A DNA stretch of 64,000 nucleotides, taken from positions 1,627,001-1,691,000 of the forward strand of contig NZ_CP011477.1 of the NCBI RefSeq assembly GCF_001010805.1. Reading direction: 5' to 3'. The number at the start of each line of letters is the position of its first letter. Within the stretch, counting starts at the first letter, position 1. The translations under genes were made by a program, and so were the position numbers. This document shows positions 40,622 through 45,722 of this stretch, in pieces. This DNA is from Spongiibacter sp. IMCC21906. Its GTDB lineage: Bacteria > Pseudomonadota > Gammaproteobacteria > Pseudomonadales > Spongiibacteraceae. The notes beneath the pieces were generated by a model. The model saw only the letters and a list, made by a program, of their open reading frames with translations, searched no databases and was not told the origin of the DNA.

Positions 40622-42622
40622 ATGAGATTTCAGCAGAGTACTCCGGTAAACCGGCGAATTGGTATCGCTGCGCGAATCATCGTGCCTGTTATTTTATTGC
40701 TGGTGATCAGCAATGCACTGGTCCTCTATGTGACCTTAGCCAGCAATAAACAGCAGTTGCTGGCTAATACCCATAGCGAAATAGCCTCAAGTACGGCACT
40801 GCAACAAACGTTTTTTCAATCAGCGATGAATGAACTCTCCGGCGATGTCTTATTTCTGTCCGGGACCCCACCTATTGCAGGATTAATTCGCGCCAGCCGC
40901 AATGAAGGCTATGACCAAGATGATCAAAGCTCTCAAGTGGCTTGGAAGTCTCGGTTAGCGAAAATTTTTGTAGGAATGCTCAACAGTAAACCCCAAACCT
41001 CCCAACTGAGATTTATTGATGCCAACGGGATGGAGCAGATTCGGGTTGATCGCAGTGGTGAAAACGGCGAAATTCGCATTGTTCCCAACAGTGAGCTGCA
41101 AAATAAGGCGACTCGAGACTACTTTCATGCGGCGACAAAACTGTCCGCTGGACAGGTTTATTTTTCTGATATTGAGCTGAACCGGGAACACGGTAAAATT
41201 ATTGAACCCCACGAACCCACTATTCGTGGCTCCACGCCGGTACAGGATGAATTCGGAAAGCTGTTTGGTGTCATTGTTAAAAATCAATATCTGGAGTCGG
41301 CGTTTAACGATATGTTGGCGCTGGCCGAGCAAGACCGTTTTTTACTGATTGCTAACCGTGAGGGTGAGTATCTAGTGCATCCGACACCGGGCCGCAGCTT
41401 TCGGTTTGAGTACAGTCAGCGCTCAAATATTGTTGATGATATCCCCGAGCTTTATCAATTTGTCAGCCCGGAGGATTCGTCGTTAGAAGCAACGGGGGAT
41501 TTACCTTGGGAAGGGGAAACCTATACTTACCATATTCGACGGGTGGTGTTTGGCCCCAACCCCGAGCGTGATTATATCTTTGTTTTCTCCTCAGAAGAGG
41601 CCAGCACTATTCTGGCACCCAATATCGCTCTTCGAAATAAAGTGCTGTTGTTTCTGATCTTTATTCTATTGGTTGCCGCAACGTTATCCTGGGCCGCCGC
41701 GCGGCAGATAGTTCACCCCATTTCTCAAATGAACTGGGCATTGCGAACGCGTCGCCTGGCTCTCTCTGAAGCGGATGTGCCGGTTTCTGCACCGGGTGAG
41801 TTGGGTTCTCTGGCCAGAGGTTTTGCTGATTTTTCAGCTGCTTTACAAGAGCGGCGCCGGGCAGAGCTTAAAGAAATGGAAGAGCGCAAGGCCGCAGAAG
41901 TGGCGCTACAGCATCATAACGAAAAGCTGTCTCAAGCTAACCATGAATTGGCGCAGTTTGCGTATATCGCCTCCCACGACCTTCAGGAGCCATTGCGGAC
42001 AGTACGCAGTTTTATCGACTTATTCCGGCAGTATTATGGGGCATCGCTGGATTCCCAGGCGATGACGTTTTTGGGTTTTATGGACGACTCCTCGTCTCGA
42101 ATGTCTGATTTGATTAAAGGCTTGTTGGACTACAGTCGTTTGGGTGTGACCGCAGACCGGGAAGAGCTTGACTTACAATTAGTGGTGGACCAGGTTTGTA
42201 GTGACTTAAAACAACGCTTGGATGAGTCGGGTGCGTCAATTCACTACGAGCAATTGCCTAATGTTAAAGGCTTGGCGGTGGAGCTGCGGCTGCTGTTTCA
42301 AAATCTTATTAGTAATGCAATTAAATTTAGTCGAAAGGGCGTACCGCCTCAGGTCGAAATTACCGTTCAGAAAATGCCGGATCACTGGCTGTTTTCAGTA
42401 AGCGATAATGGTATAGGCATTGAAGAGCGGTCATTGGATAGGATATTTTTAATCTTTCAACGGCTGCATTCCCGAGATGCTTTTGAGGGAACAGGGATAG
42501 GTTTGGCGCACTGCAAAAAAATAGTAGAAGCTCACGGTGGTAAAATCTGGGTGGAGTCGGAAGTGGATGTTGGTTCCACGTTCTACTTCACCTTAAAGGA
42601 GGTTAACAGTGAAAAAGCTTGA
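40622..42622 (+). CDS. Sensor histidine kinase with periplasmic sensor domain
   Basis: Membrane kinase of 666 residues. Helix 1 is at about 18-40, a large periplasmic Cache-like sensor at 41-338, helix 2 at 340-360, HAMP at about 361-412, a coiled coil to 445, HisKA with phospho-accepting H452 (ASHDLQEPLRT), and an ATPase domain with NLISNAIKFS, VSDNGIGIE and GTGIGLAHCKKIVEAHGG. The H-box is of the kind seen in phytochrome-type kinases. It overlaps the following response regulator gene by 14 bases. The signal is unknown. Confidence 0.9.
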   Translation: MRFQQSTPVNRRIGIAARIIVPVILLLVISNALVLYVTLASNKQQLLANTHSEIASSTALQQTFFQSAMNELSGDVLFLSGTPPIAGLIRASRNEGYDQDDQSSQVAWKSRLAKIFVGMLNSKPQTSQLRFIDANGMEQIRVDRSGENGEIRIVPNSELQNKATRDYFHAATKLSAGQVYFSDIELNREHGKIIEPHEPTIRGSTPVQDEFGKLFGVIVKNQYLESAFNDMLALAEQDRFLLIANREGEYLVHPTPGRSFRFEYSQRSNIVDDIPELYQFVSPEDSSLEATGDLPWEGETYTYHIRRVVFGPNPERDYIFVFSSEEASTILAPNIALRNKVLLFLIFILLVAATLSWAAARQIVHPISQMNWALRTRRLALSEADVPVSAPGELGSLARGFADFSAALQERRRAELKEMEERKAAEVALQHHNEKLSQANHELAQFAYIASHDLQEPLRTVRSFIDLFRQYYGASLDSQAMTFLGFMDDSSSRMSDLIKGLLDYSRLGVTADREELDLQLVVDQVCSDLKQRLDESGASIHYEQLPNVKGLAVELRLLFQNLISNAIKFSRKGVPPQVEITVQKMPDHWLFSVSDNGIGIEERSLDRIFLIFQRLHSRDAFEGTGIGLAHCKKIVEAHGGKIWVESEVDVGSTFYFTLKEVNSEKA

Positions 42623-43028
42623 CTTGGTATTGTTGGTTGACGACTGCAAGGCCACTAATTTTGTCCACCGTTTGCTGATAGAAAATAATGGCTTTGCCAA
42701 GCGTATTGATGAGGTGGGTAACGGCGTAGAGGCTCTGGATTATCTGACCGGCTCGGTGGATGGGAGCTATCCTCAGCCAGATTTGATTTTTCTGGATATC
42801 AATATGCCCAAAATGAATGGCTGGGAGTTTCTCGATGCCTATGAAAACTTGCCAGATGAACAAAAGGCGGGTGCGGTGGTGGTGATGTTAACAACCTCCT
42901 TAAACCCTGCCGATAAAGAAATGGCGGAGCGTCAGGGGCATATTAAAGGCTTCTCCAGTAAACCGTTAGATTCTGAAAAGTTGAACGCGATGTTGCGTCA
43001 ATACTATCCAGAGTGTTTAGCCGACTAA
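42609..43028 (+). CDS. Single-domain response regulator (Rcp1-like)
   Basis: Receiver domain only, 139 residues, no output domain. The acidic pocket is DD at 11-12, phospho-acceptor D63 in FLDINMPKMNGWEF, TTS near 95-97 and K118 in SSKPL. It resembles the Rcp1 group that pairs with phytochrome-like kinases. It starts at GTG, chosen because AAGGAGG lies six bases upstream, inside the end of the kinase gene. It probably relays phosphate to another protein. Confidence 0.9.
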   Translation: MKKLDLVLLVDDCKATNFVHRLLIENNGFAKRIDEVGNGVEALDYLTGSVDGSYPQPDLIFLDINMPKMNGWEFLDAYENLPDEQKAGAVVVMLTTSLNPADKEMAERQGHIKGFSSKPLDSEKLNAMLRQYYPECLAD

Positions 43029-43047: not shown

Positions 43048-43081
43048 CCTGCCGTAGCTTGTTTGGCAGGAATGTCCTGCC
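43048..43081 (+). terminator. Alternative hairpins after the response regulator gene
   Basis: CCTGCC (43048), GGCAGGA (43065) and TCCTGCC (43075) can form two mutually exclusive stems. No T run follows. It may end or pause the kinase/regulator transcript just before the Pho-box array; evidence is limited to base pairing. Confidence 0.35.
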
Positions 43082-43085
43082 TCTG

Positions 43086-43141
43086 TTGTCATAAAACTGT
43101 CCTCAAATAGTCCTGCTGCTGTCATCTTTCAGTATTAGTCT
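43086..43141 (+). promoter_or_regulatory. Tandem PhoB-box array and -10 of the plcP-type operon
   Basis: Five 7-base units begin at 43086, 43097, 43108, 43119 and 43130: TTGTCAT, CTGTCCT, TAGTCCT, CTGTCAT, CAGTATT. The start-to-start spacing is exactly 11 bases, with 4-base spacers, as in PhoB boxes. The first pair with its AAAA spacer matches the consensus (CTGTCAT, A-rich spacer, CTGTCAY) at 16 of 18 positions. Ten bases after the fourth unit is TAGTCT, in the place of the -10 box in phoA-type promoters. The operon should be induced at low phosphate. Confidence 0.75.
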
Positions 43142-43171
43142 TGCCACAAATGCATAGAGAGGATGCATGAT

Positions 43172-43990
43172 GTGAAGACAAGGCTGAAATACAAAACGCT
43201 GTGGCTTTCTGATATCCACTTGGGCTTTAAAGATTGTCGAGCAGACTACCTGCTGGATTTTCTGTCACAGGTCGAGTGCGAAACCATCTATCTGGTTGGC
43301 GATGTGGTTGACCTTTGGGCAATGAAGCGTAGTCTTTTTTGGCCGCCTAATCATTACGAAGTGCTACGCACTCTCTTCAAAAAAGCCAATAATGGCACGC
43401 GAATTGTCTATATCCCCGGTAATCACGATGAGCCCTTCCGTGATTATGTCGGTCATATTTTTGGCCCTATCGAAATCAAGAAAGAAGCTGTTCACACCAC
43501 GGTTTCAGGCAAACGCTTACTGATGTTTCACGGCGATTGCCTTGATGAACATATCCGTCTCAGTAAATGGGAAAACCTTATCGGCGACTACGCCTACGAT
43601 CTGCTGTTATTCCTCAATCGCTGGGCTAATTTTTTACGGCGCCGTTTTGGCAAGCATTACTGGTCGCTGGCGACTTATATCAAACAGCGTATTCCCAATG
43701 CCCGCCAAGTGATTGATGTATTTGAACGTGCCGCCGTTGAAGAAGCCGCTCGTCGTAACCTGGATGGTGTTATTTGCGGCCACATTCACCAGCCAGCGTT
43801 AAAAACCATTGACGGAATATTGTATTGCAACGACGGCGATTGGATAGAGAACTGTACCGCCATGGCCGAAAACCATGATGGTGGTTTAGAACTCTTACAG
43901 TGGACTGAAAAGCACGTGTTATTAGCAAGCCTAAATGCAGAAGGGCAACCCGCCACTGCGGACGTGTTACCCATGCGTCGCGCCGGTTAG
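43172..43990 (+). CDS. PlcP-type metallophosphoesterase (phospholipase C-like; often labelled UDP-2,3-diacylglucosamine hydrolase-like)
   Basis: Calcineurin-like phosphoesterase of 272 residues. Metal ligands are in SDIHLG (D14, H16), GDVVD (D44), GNHDE (N84, H85), FHGD (H120) and CGHIHQP. The overall pattern (ADYLLDFLSQ, VGDVVDLWAMKR, YWSLATYIK, CNDGDWIENCTA) is close to rhizobial PlcP, which removes phospholipid head groups to give diacylglycerol under phosphate limitation. LpxH itself is shorter and differs in the C-terminal part. I chose GTG at 43172 because the GAGAGG site sits about nine bases before it, but directly against the ATG at 43163. First gene after a Pho-box array. Confidence 0.82.
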   Translation: MKTRLKYKTLWLSDIHLGFKDCRADYLLDFLSQVECETIYLVGDVVDLWAMKRSLFWPPNHYEVLRTLFKKANNGTRIVYIPGNHDEPFRDYVGHIFGPIEIKKEAVHTTVSGKRLLMFHGDCLDEHIRLSKWENLIGDYAYDLLLFLNRWANFLRRRFGKHYWSLATYIKQRIPNARQVIDVFERAAVEEAARRNLDGVICGHIHQPALKTIDGILYCNDGDWIENCTAMAENHDGGLELLQWTEKHVLLASLNAEGQPATADVLPMRRAG

Positions 43991-44015
43991 TCGGCATTGA
44001 AAAGGTAAACGATAA

Positions 44016-45722
44016 GTGATTTCTGTAGACGCGGTATTAGATCAACGCTTTCCCAAGTTTGCAAAAGACAGCCCGCGCTTGCGCCGTACGGTGACGGCGC
44101 TGCTTAAGTACTTATTTCATGAGGCGGAGTTCAAGCAATTTGAACGGGACTATCCGTATTTACAAGGTTTGGATTTTGTCGATAAAGCCTTGGAATACTT
44201 TGATTTCAGCTACGCGGTTAGCGCTCTGGATAAAGAACGCATTGCTGTGAATGGCAAAGTGGTGATTATTTCCAATCATCCCATTGGCAGTTTAGATGGT
44301 TTGGCTTTGCTGAAATTGGTGTCTGAAGTACGCAGCGATGTCAAAGTGGTTGCCAACGAACTGCTGTATTCACTCAAGCCGCTGCGTAGCATGTTATTGC
44401 CTGTCGACAATATGAGTGGCAAGCGCAATCGCAAAGAAAATGTTCAGGCGATTCATCAGCACCTGCAAGGCGAGGGGGCAGTGATTATTTTTCCTGCCGG
44501 AGAAGTCTCCCGGTTTGGTCCCCACGGTATTCGCGATGGTCGCTGGCGTAATGGCTTTATAAAATTTGCCGAAAAAGCGGGCGCGCCGATATTGCCGGTG
44601 CATATCAACGCTCGCAATTCCGTATTTTTTTATGCTTTATCGTTGCTGGCCAAACCGCTATCAACGCTGTGGCTGATTCGGGAAATGTTTAAGCAAAATA
44701 ATCGCACGGTCAGAGTCAGTGTTGGCCCGGCGATTGATGCGGATATGTATCGGAATCTGCCGTTAACTGCGCCAGCCAAAGTCCGTTTATTTAAAAAGCA
44801 TATCTACAAATTGGGGAGTCGTAAGCGTAAAGGCGAGCCCTGTTTTATTCCCGCTGCGCAACCTGTAGCGCATCCAGAAGATCGTCAAGATTTACGGCGG
44901 GCCATTCGCGCTTGCGATCACTTGGGAAGCACCCGAGATGGCATGGAGATCTACTGTTATCAATACCATGGTGACTGCACCATTATGCGGGAAATTGGCC
45001 GCCTGCGAGAAATCAGTTTTCGGGCAGTAGGCGAGGGCACGGGTCACCGTCGAGATGTAGATGCTTTCGATGCCTATTACGACCATATCGTGTTATGGGA
45101 TGAGAACCAGCTAGAGCTGGTCGGCGCATATCGCTTAAAACGGGTGGCGACCTTGGAGTCAAACGAAAGCCTGTACAGCAGTACCCTGTTTGATTACCGC
45201 GTATTGGAAGCTGAAGAGTTATTTGAGCAGGGCGCAGAGTTAGGCCGCAGTTTTGTTCAACCTCGTTATTGGGGACGTAATGCGCTGGACTATTTGTGGC
45301 AGGGCGTTGGTCGTTATTTAGAGCGTCACAGAGACGTCCGCTATTTGTTTGGCCCCGTTAGTTTAAGCGACAAAATGCCCCGAGGCGCAAAGGACTTGCT
45401 GGTGGAGTTTTATCGCAAGCACTTTCAGTCACCGAGCAACTGGGCAAGTGCAAAAATGCCTTACCGCATAGAAGGCGAGGGCAATGCCTTTAGCGGAGAG
45501 GACTACAAAGCTGAATTTGCCGAGTTAAAAGAACGCTTGGCAGAAATGGGTTGTGCTGTCCCCACGTTATACAAGCAATATTCTGAGTTATGCGAGCCTG
45601 GCGGTGTCAGTTTTGCGGATTTTAATATCGATCCTGATTTTGCCGACTGTATTGATGGCTTGGTGCTGGTGGATATTGAGAGCATGAAACCGGCTAGGCG
45701 GAATCGGTATTTGGGATTTTAG
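44016..45722 (+). CDS. Two-domain acyltransferase, OlsF-like (candidate ornithine/amino-lipid synthase)
   Basis: Fusion of 568 residues. Residues about 75-275 form a PlsC/OlsA-like O-acyltransferase with SNHPIGSLDG in place of the usual His-x4-Asp box (His-x5-Asp here) and PAGEVSRFG. Residues about 300-500 form an OlsB-like (hemolysin-type GNAT) N-acyltransferase with LREISFRAVGEG and DVDAFDAYYDHIVLWD. OlsF of Serratia makes ornithine lipid with the same two-domain plan. GTG start, 25 bases after the PlcP-type gene, so in the same Pho-controlled operon. The acylated amino compound is not proven. Confidence 0.75.
   Translation: MISVDAVLDQRFPKFAKDSPRLRRTVTALLKYLFHEAEFKQFERDYPYLQGLDFVDKALEYFDFSYAVSALDKERIAVNGKVVIISNHPIGSLDGLALLKLVSEVRSDVKVVANELLYSLKPLRSMLLPVDNMSGKRNRKENVQAIHQHLQGEGAVIIFPAGEVSRFGPHGIRDGRWRNGFIKFAEKAGAPILPVHINARNSVFFYALSLLAKPLSTLWLIREMFKQNNRTVRVSVGPAIDADMYRNLPLTAPAKVRLFKKHIYKLGSRKRKGEPCFIPAAQPVAHPEDRQDLRRAIRACDHLGSTRDGMEIYCYQYHGDCTIMREIGRLREISFRAVGEGTGHRRDVDAFDAYYDHIVLWDENQLELVGAYRLKRVATLESNESLYSSTLFDYRVLEAEELFEQGAELGRSFVQPRYWGRNALDYLWQGVGRYLERHRDVRYLFGPVSLSDKMPRGAKDLLVEFYRKHFQSPSNWASAKMPYRIEGEGNAFSGEDYKAEFAELKERLAEMGCAVPTLYKQYSELCEPGGVSFADFNIDPDFADCIDGLVLVDIESMKPARRNRYLGF

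Follow-up and report, generated by a model that had tools for sequence, protein, structure and literature searches.

Phospholipid removal by PlcP is known from several arrangements in which plcP lies next to the genes of a substitute lipid. In P. aeruginosa (PA3219-PA3218), Methylosinus and SAR11, a Pho-box-driven plcP stands beside agt, the gene of a non-phosphorus lipid synthase, as described in the available parts of PMC8528852, PMC9239053 and PMC4796936. In Phaeobacter MED193 it is joined to the betaine-lipid genes btaAB (type 1 in the accessible text of PMC4796936), again coupling phospholipid removal to a substitute lipid. In such systems PlcP makes diacylglycerol, and Agt or BtaAB consume it (PMC8528852, PMC4796936 and PMC3972451, each in its accessible portion). 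The same portion of PMC4796936 distinguishes six types of plcP neighbourhood, with btaAB, agt, other glycosyltransferase genes or no operon, and the word olsF was not found in the main text of that paper. According to the available text of PMC3972451, PhoB of S. meliloti activates plcP along with the genes for ornithine lipid and betaine lipid, the control of PlcP together with the ornithine-lipid genes also being covered by the accessible part of PMC10315480. In Pseudomonas both arms are likewise phosphate-controlled, but PlcP and OlsA/OlsB are encoded at separate loci, OlsB and OlsA being two proteins (available parts of PMC5082522 and PMC9804370). A bifunctional ornithine lipid synthase, OlsF, occurs in Serratia and Vibrio cholerae (VC0489). 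The latter forms ornithine lipid at low phosphate (according to the title of PMC12186959), with a dependence on PhoBR that is indicated by a cited title; no plcP partner is reported in PMC12186959, in which the word plcP is absent.

The locus described here lies in a window of 64,000 nucleotides (the whole stretch of DNA that was analysed) from Spongiibacter sp. IMCC21906, and combines a Pho-box array, a plcP-type gene and olsF (Table 1). We consider it probable that this is a PhoB-activated two-gene operon exchanging phospholipid for ornithine lipid. It resembles the plcP-agt operon in its Pho-box-driven plcP, but differs from it in that its place after plcP is taken by olsF, the gene of an enzyme that does not draw on diacylglycerol, in that the window PlcP falls outside the agt-paired clade, and in that Agt was not found in the organism's own genome (threshold E<=1e-70, with scores computed for the best 6 of 19 candidates from a first look). 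Unlike in the plcP-btaAB system, BtaA (PF11899, E<=1e-10) was found neither in this genome nor in 29 genomes with an adjacent plcP-olsF pair. The preliminary description of this DNA knew of no account of the exact two-gene pairing, and we likewise found none in the literature searched, for which sources were available in part and many subscription papers were outside the scope. The recurrent arrangement is new; its parts and its strategy are already known.

Table 1. Features of the plcP-olsF locus, numbered from the first letter of the window.
Feature	Position	Strand	Remarks
Terminator-like hairpin	43065..43081	+	Between upstream response-regulator gene and array; found by consensus match alone, and shuffled sequence has such matches at least as often
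Pho box 1	43086..43103	+	Half-sites TTGTCAT and CTGTCCT; 16/18 against CTGTCATAAAACTGTCAT; kept in family
Pho box 2	43108..43125	+	Half-sites TAGTCCT (weak) and CTGTCAT
-10-like hexamer TAGTCT	43136..43141	+	Exactly 10 bases past half-site 4
plcP-type metallophosphoesterase gene	43163..43990	+	Pfam Metallophos (calcineurin-like phosphoesterase); 44% to S. meliloti homologue; fails LpxH cut-offs
olsF, predicted bifunctional ornithine lipid synthase	44016..45722	+	NCBIfam NF052615, 822.3 bits (cut-off 620); Pfam domains

The four half-sites of the array (43086-43125) start at 43086, 43097, 43108 and 43119, an exact 11-base period, and match CTGTCAT at 6, 6, 4 and 7 of 7 positions. The array exceeds chance, its four-unit score of 23/28 being the top position on both strands of the window and above anything seen when the 64 kb were dinucleotide-shuffled 200 times (maximum 21); other periods (8-10 and 12-15 bases) gave scores of 20 or less. 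When a two-unit consensus was scanned with up to 3 mismatches, the window gave 9 matches, 3 of them inside the array, against an expected mean of 4.0, which is only mildly unusual (9 matches were reached in 2/100 shuffles). The count of a shorter pattern in the window was not unusual, and a sigma-70 scan gave no -35/-10 pair at the array. The layout is that of a PhoB-type promoter, with CTGTCAT direct repeats at 11 bases in the -35 position followed by a -10. The preliminary description had placed the locus correctly at 43086..45722; its score for the first pair against the Pho-box consensus came out the same on recomputation, and the -10-like hexamer stands at the exact distance that it had given. 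It had also counted five half-sites. Units 1-4 are confirmed, but the fifth (43130 CAGTATT, 4/7 to CTGTCAT) was left out because it overlaps the spacer and the -10 and its family mean is only 2.95/7. Directly upstream, at 40622-43028 of the window, lie genes for a histidine kinase and a receiver-only response regulator.

The genome carries phoB, phoR and pstS in a row. Both PhoB (TIGR02154, 339.4 bits, cut-off 296.2) and PhoR (401 bits, cut-off 334.2) exceeded their cut-offs; with a second, enterobacterial-type model, NF007546, PhoB gave 309.7 bits, below 471. When the genome was scanned for three TGTCA units spaced 11 bases apart, 90 sites had 3 mismatches or fewer, as compared to 44 for the reversed control pattern. 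The single array with zero mismatches (G000:C1:2692727-2692753, L177) precedes a Porin_O_P (phosphate-selective porin O/P) gene, and a 3-mismatch array is present at pstS. Since 3 mismatches are needed in the window, its sites are not significant alone in this triple scan, and the evidence for regulation, as read from sequence, is the four-unit array plus its conservation. Elsewhere in the genome, an array, ten bases and TAGTCT are found ahead of a 61-codon open frame (G000:C1:2836409-2836435, minus strand, L182).

Conservation was analyzed by searching 96 relatives, 38 of which had OlsF over its cut-off, and examining 30 loci. plcP adjoins olsF in 22 of these 30, namely in 20/20 loci of the window's family, the locus described here among them, and in 2/10 others; no locus was obtained from one more family genome, G019, which is outside this count. 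Every family locus has the four half-sites with their 11-base spacing and, 10 bases farther on, TANNNT, and each reached p=0.003, the lowest value that 300 shuffles allow; a separate column count gave TANNNT in 19/20, the best register of one locus being two units upstream. According to the preliminary description, close relatives that had the genes but lacked the array would speak against its reading; all 20 family loci keep both pair and array. Information per column over the 20 sites was 1.33 bits in the half-sites and 1.31 in the -10, with 0.73 in the linkers and 0.15 in the 60 bases upstream. Mean matches for units 1-5 were 6.2, 5.15, 3.45, 5.8 and 2.95 of 7, and the GTC core was present in unit 4 of 20/20 sites and in unit 3 of 9/20; unit 3 is weak too. 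In 7/20 loci (L009, L018-L021, L025 and L026), the highest two-unit score at plcP fell on another place in the region, and the four-unit test was therefore adopted. As a control, the 240 bases before olsF gave a mean score of 2.4, as compared to 3.3 in shuffles. Outside the family, only 7/19 plcP-olsF loci had the three-unit geometry at p<=0.05, indicating that the pairing and the Pho array can occur one without the other; 6/8 loci with olsF but no adjoining plcP, taken from other families of the order, had this geometry. The end of plsB was seen upstream of plcP in 3/20 family loci.

To how many lineages the gene pair extends can be read from 322 genomes of the order, a search of which gave PlcP in 120 genomes, OlsF above its cut-off in 81 and both in 61. 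Where both occur, they are adjacent in 29 genomes, 1856 bases apart in 1, and farther apart or on different contigs in 31. The 29 adjacent pairs come from 10 families, with 14 in the window's own family; 27 have the order plcP-olsF and 2 the order olsF-plcP, and the gap is below 60 bases in 26 (one pair, in G070, includes a partial PlcP match only, model 2-165). Among named plcP loci, taken as the best 80 of 570 matches, OlsF was matched in 8, six times no farther than 280 bases downstream (Thalassotalea, two Alteromonadaceae, Rheinheimera, Glaciecola and Shewanella); Agt was matched in 54 of these 80, at least 3 of them weakly, and 18 loci, part of them with short flanks, matched neither. On a quick tree that we built from 67 PlcPs picked from the order and named-locus sets, olsF-pairing (set against a loose label "apart", which includes S. 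meliloti and genomes without OlsF over cut-off and under which, in fragmented genomes, a neighbour may sit on another contig) required at least 8 changes, 3 of which are forced by starred branches. A single clade for all 28 olsF-paired rows was rejected (p-AU 4e-67), as was the same constraint once the two rows placed next to the protein of P. aeruginosa had been taken out (p-AU 4e-9); the pairing label had been fixed before the tree was made, and the second test was picked after viewing it. A single origin is hence rejected: the pairing is recurrent and arose more than once, a pattern in favour of a functional link.

The substrates of OlsF are ornithine and acyl-ACP, and ornithine lipid is not built from the diacylglycerol of PlcP. 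Aminolipid formation is indeed called independent of the PlcP pathway in the available text of PMC9938194. With Agt and BtaA not found, the usual consumers of the PlcP product seem to be missing. The absence of Agt as a special trait of plcP-olsF genomes was considered and found no support, Agt being present in 2/29 adjacent-pair genomes vs 12/59 with plcP but without OlsF over cut-off (Fisher p=0.13). DgkA gave 2 matches in the own genome. One dgkA gene (G000:C1:1007186-1007560, minus strand, L211/L240) is preceded by two half-sites at 11-base spacing, 10-11 bases and TANNNT, a geometry found at p<=0.05 in 12/14 congeneric loci after the spacer range had been widened to 10-11 upon viewing the sites; with a spacer of exactly 10 bases the result was mixed (7/14 at p<0.05). 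WS/DGAT (PF03007) is present in 6 copies, and in 3-14 per genome across 21 family genomes, numbers that suggest wax ester or triacylglycerol storage. An ELM1-like gene (PF06258; G000:C1:783482-784540, minus strand, L180/L227) occurs in 11/16 genomes of the genus, the own genome included, and has three-unit PhoB-type geometry in 7/11 congeneric loci. ELM1 proteins resemble GT-B glycosyltransferases, and this gene is a candidate for a phosphate-regulated, putative glycosyltransferase; the papers searched held nothing relevant on ELM1. We infer that the diacylglycerol most likely passes to DgkA and/or, via WS/DGAT, into storage lipid.

The two genes may instead be members of the Pho regulon that share a promoter and have no joint task, with PlcP serving phosphorus salvage and its diacylglycerol being recycled by DgkA, and OlsF serving envelope charge or stress resistance. 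This explanation fits Pseudomonas, where PlcP and ornithine-lipid synthesis are phosphate-controlled yet unlinked (available parts of PMC5082522, PMC8528852 and PMC9804370), the 31/61 order genomes in which the genes lie apart, and the related promoter at dgkA in the 12/14 relatives, for which the spacer range was widened afterwards. Repeated pairing with more than one origin, in both gene orders and mostly with gaps of less than 60 bases, nevertheless suggests more than shared control, and we regard the absence of a joint task as possible but rather doubtful.

In the proposed exchange of phospholipid for ornithine lipid, PlcP would be supplied by the first gene, which had been put forward as PlcP-type from the start. 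Its start codon is more probably GTG 43172 than ATG 43163, because AGAGAGG (43156-43162) abuts the latter. The protein is identical at 44% over 265 aa to the S. meliloti homologue and at 44% over 242 residues to the P. aeruginosa homologue, which is encoded upstream of a glycosyltransferase gene, as compared to 24% over 212 residues to LpxH of its own genome. The S. meliloti gene was picked out through its neighbours, genes for a LuxR-type regulator and an AHL synthase, which fit with SMc00171 next to sinR-sinI, the gene that we take it to be. The P. aeruginosa and S. meliloti homologues share 46.6% identity, close to the 46% reported for PA3219, and the gene arrangement of the former is as reported for PA3219-PA3218 in the accessible portion of the literature.

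An LpxH (lipid A) enzyme, or a phosphoesterase for another substrate that leaves phospholipids uncleaved, would agree with the public records, which name the family UDP-2,3-diacylglucosamine diphosphatase, and with the solved structures found by sequence, 7/7 of which are LpxH. However, the window protein scored 45.4 bits (cut-off 134) and 40.7 bits (cut-off 190.35) with the LpxH models and failed both, as did the S. meliloti homologue, whereas a separate LpxH at G000:C1:2416879 reached 319 bits over 134, following a gene that by eye looks like a peptidyl-prolyl isomerase. LpxH identity was accordingly rejected for the window protein on these scores and on its identities to the S. meliloti protein (44%) and to the genome's real LpxH (24%), which bear out the distinction from the latter. 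Residues at the positions that we assumed to form the metallophosphoesterase motif are invariant across 24 PlcP sequences. On the quick tree, which left out the tested PlcPs of Phaeobacter, SAR11 and Methylosinus, the window PlcP branches outside a starred clade of 24 rows to which the S. meliloti protein and the P. aeruginosa protein of the PA3219-PA3218 arrangement belong. This placement, apart from the two PlcPs of characterised type, counts in favour of the alternative activity; we therefore use the label "PlcP-type", and its predicted activity is carried across a deep split. All considered, an LpxH or other non-phospholipid activity appears improbable. PlcP-type proteins at L093 and L094 and in plasmid records carry the diphosphatase annotation.

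The second gene, 25 bases after plcP, encodes in one protein a PF19576 acyltransferase domain (residues 7-241) and a GNAT-type PF13444 domain (330-429), in agreement with the two-domain acyltransferase first described at this spacing. NF052615 matches OlsF residues 1-566 and its curated equivalog cut-off is passed, by which the gene product is a predicted ornithine lipid synthase, OlsF; a match to the OlsB model was below its cut-off. Relatives of OlsF may use other amino acids, but a lipid with lysine, glycine or glutamine, or an array bound by another response regulator, is unlikely here: an OlsF homologue has been speculated to make lysine lipids (available text of PMC11631085) and the glycine-lipid models GlsA and GlsB match at 164 and 138 bits, yet below their cut-offs of 260 and 300 with OlsF well above its own, and the regulator encoded beside the kinase just upstream shows a receiver domain only and its gene was found in only 10/20 family loci (flank before plcP about 650 bases), whereas the array is in 20/20.

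In the PhoB-activated swap operon, phosphorylated PhoB would bind at low phosphate to the two direct-repeat Pho boxes, which would stand in for a -35, and would recruit sigma-70 RNA polymerase to TAGTCT; both genes would be co-transcribed. PlcP would then free phosphorus by splitting phospholipids into diacylglycerol and a head group that carries the phosphate, and OlsF would convert ornithine and two acyl-ACPs into ornithine lipid, refilling the membrane without phosphorus. The preliminary claim that one operon both removes phospholipid and builds its replacement is favoured by the array kept in 20/20 loci, the OlsF equivalog, the 44% identity of PlcP and the recurrent pairing; it does not extend to a substrate-product chain between the two enzymes. 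More tentatively, plcP-olsF may represent a distinct, repeatedly assembled swap module that builds its substitute lipid from something other than the diacylglycerol released by PlcP. Salvage and refilling would run as two streams, and the diacylglycerol would go to other phosphate-controlled genes (dgkA, perhaps the ELM1-like PF06258 gene) or to triacylglycerol via the 6 WS/DGAT copies.

So far, PlcP remodelling has been linked to the genes of glycolipid and betaine-lipid synthesis, the enzymes of which use up PlcP's diacylglycerol. Recurrent pairing with an aminolipid synthase, if true, would be a second route by which phospholipid loss is coupled to replacement. Bacteria with plcP-olsF would be missed by a survey based on agt or btaA, and the pairing raises the testable question of where PlcP's diacylglycerol goes.
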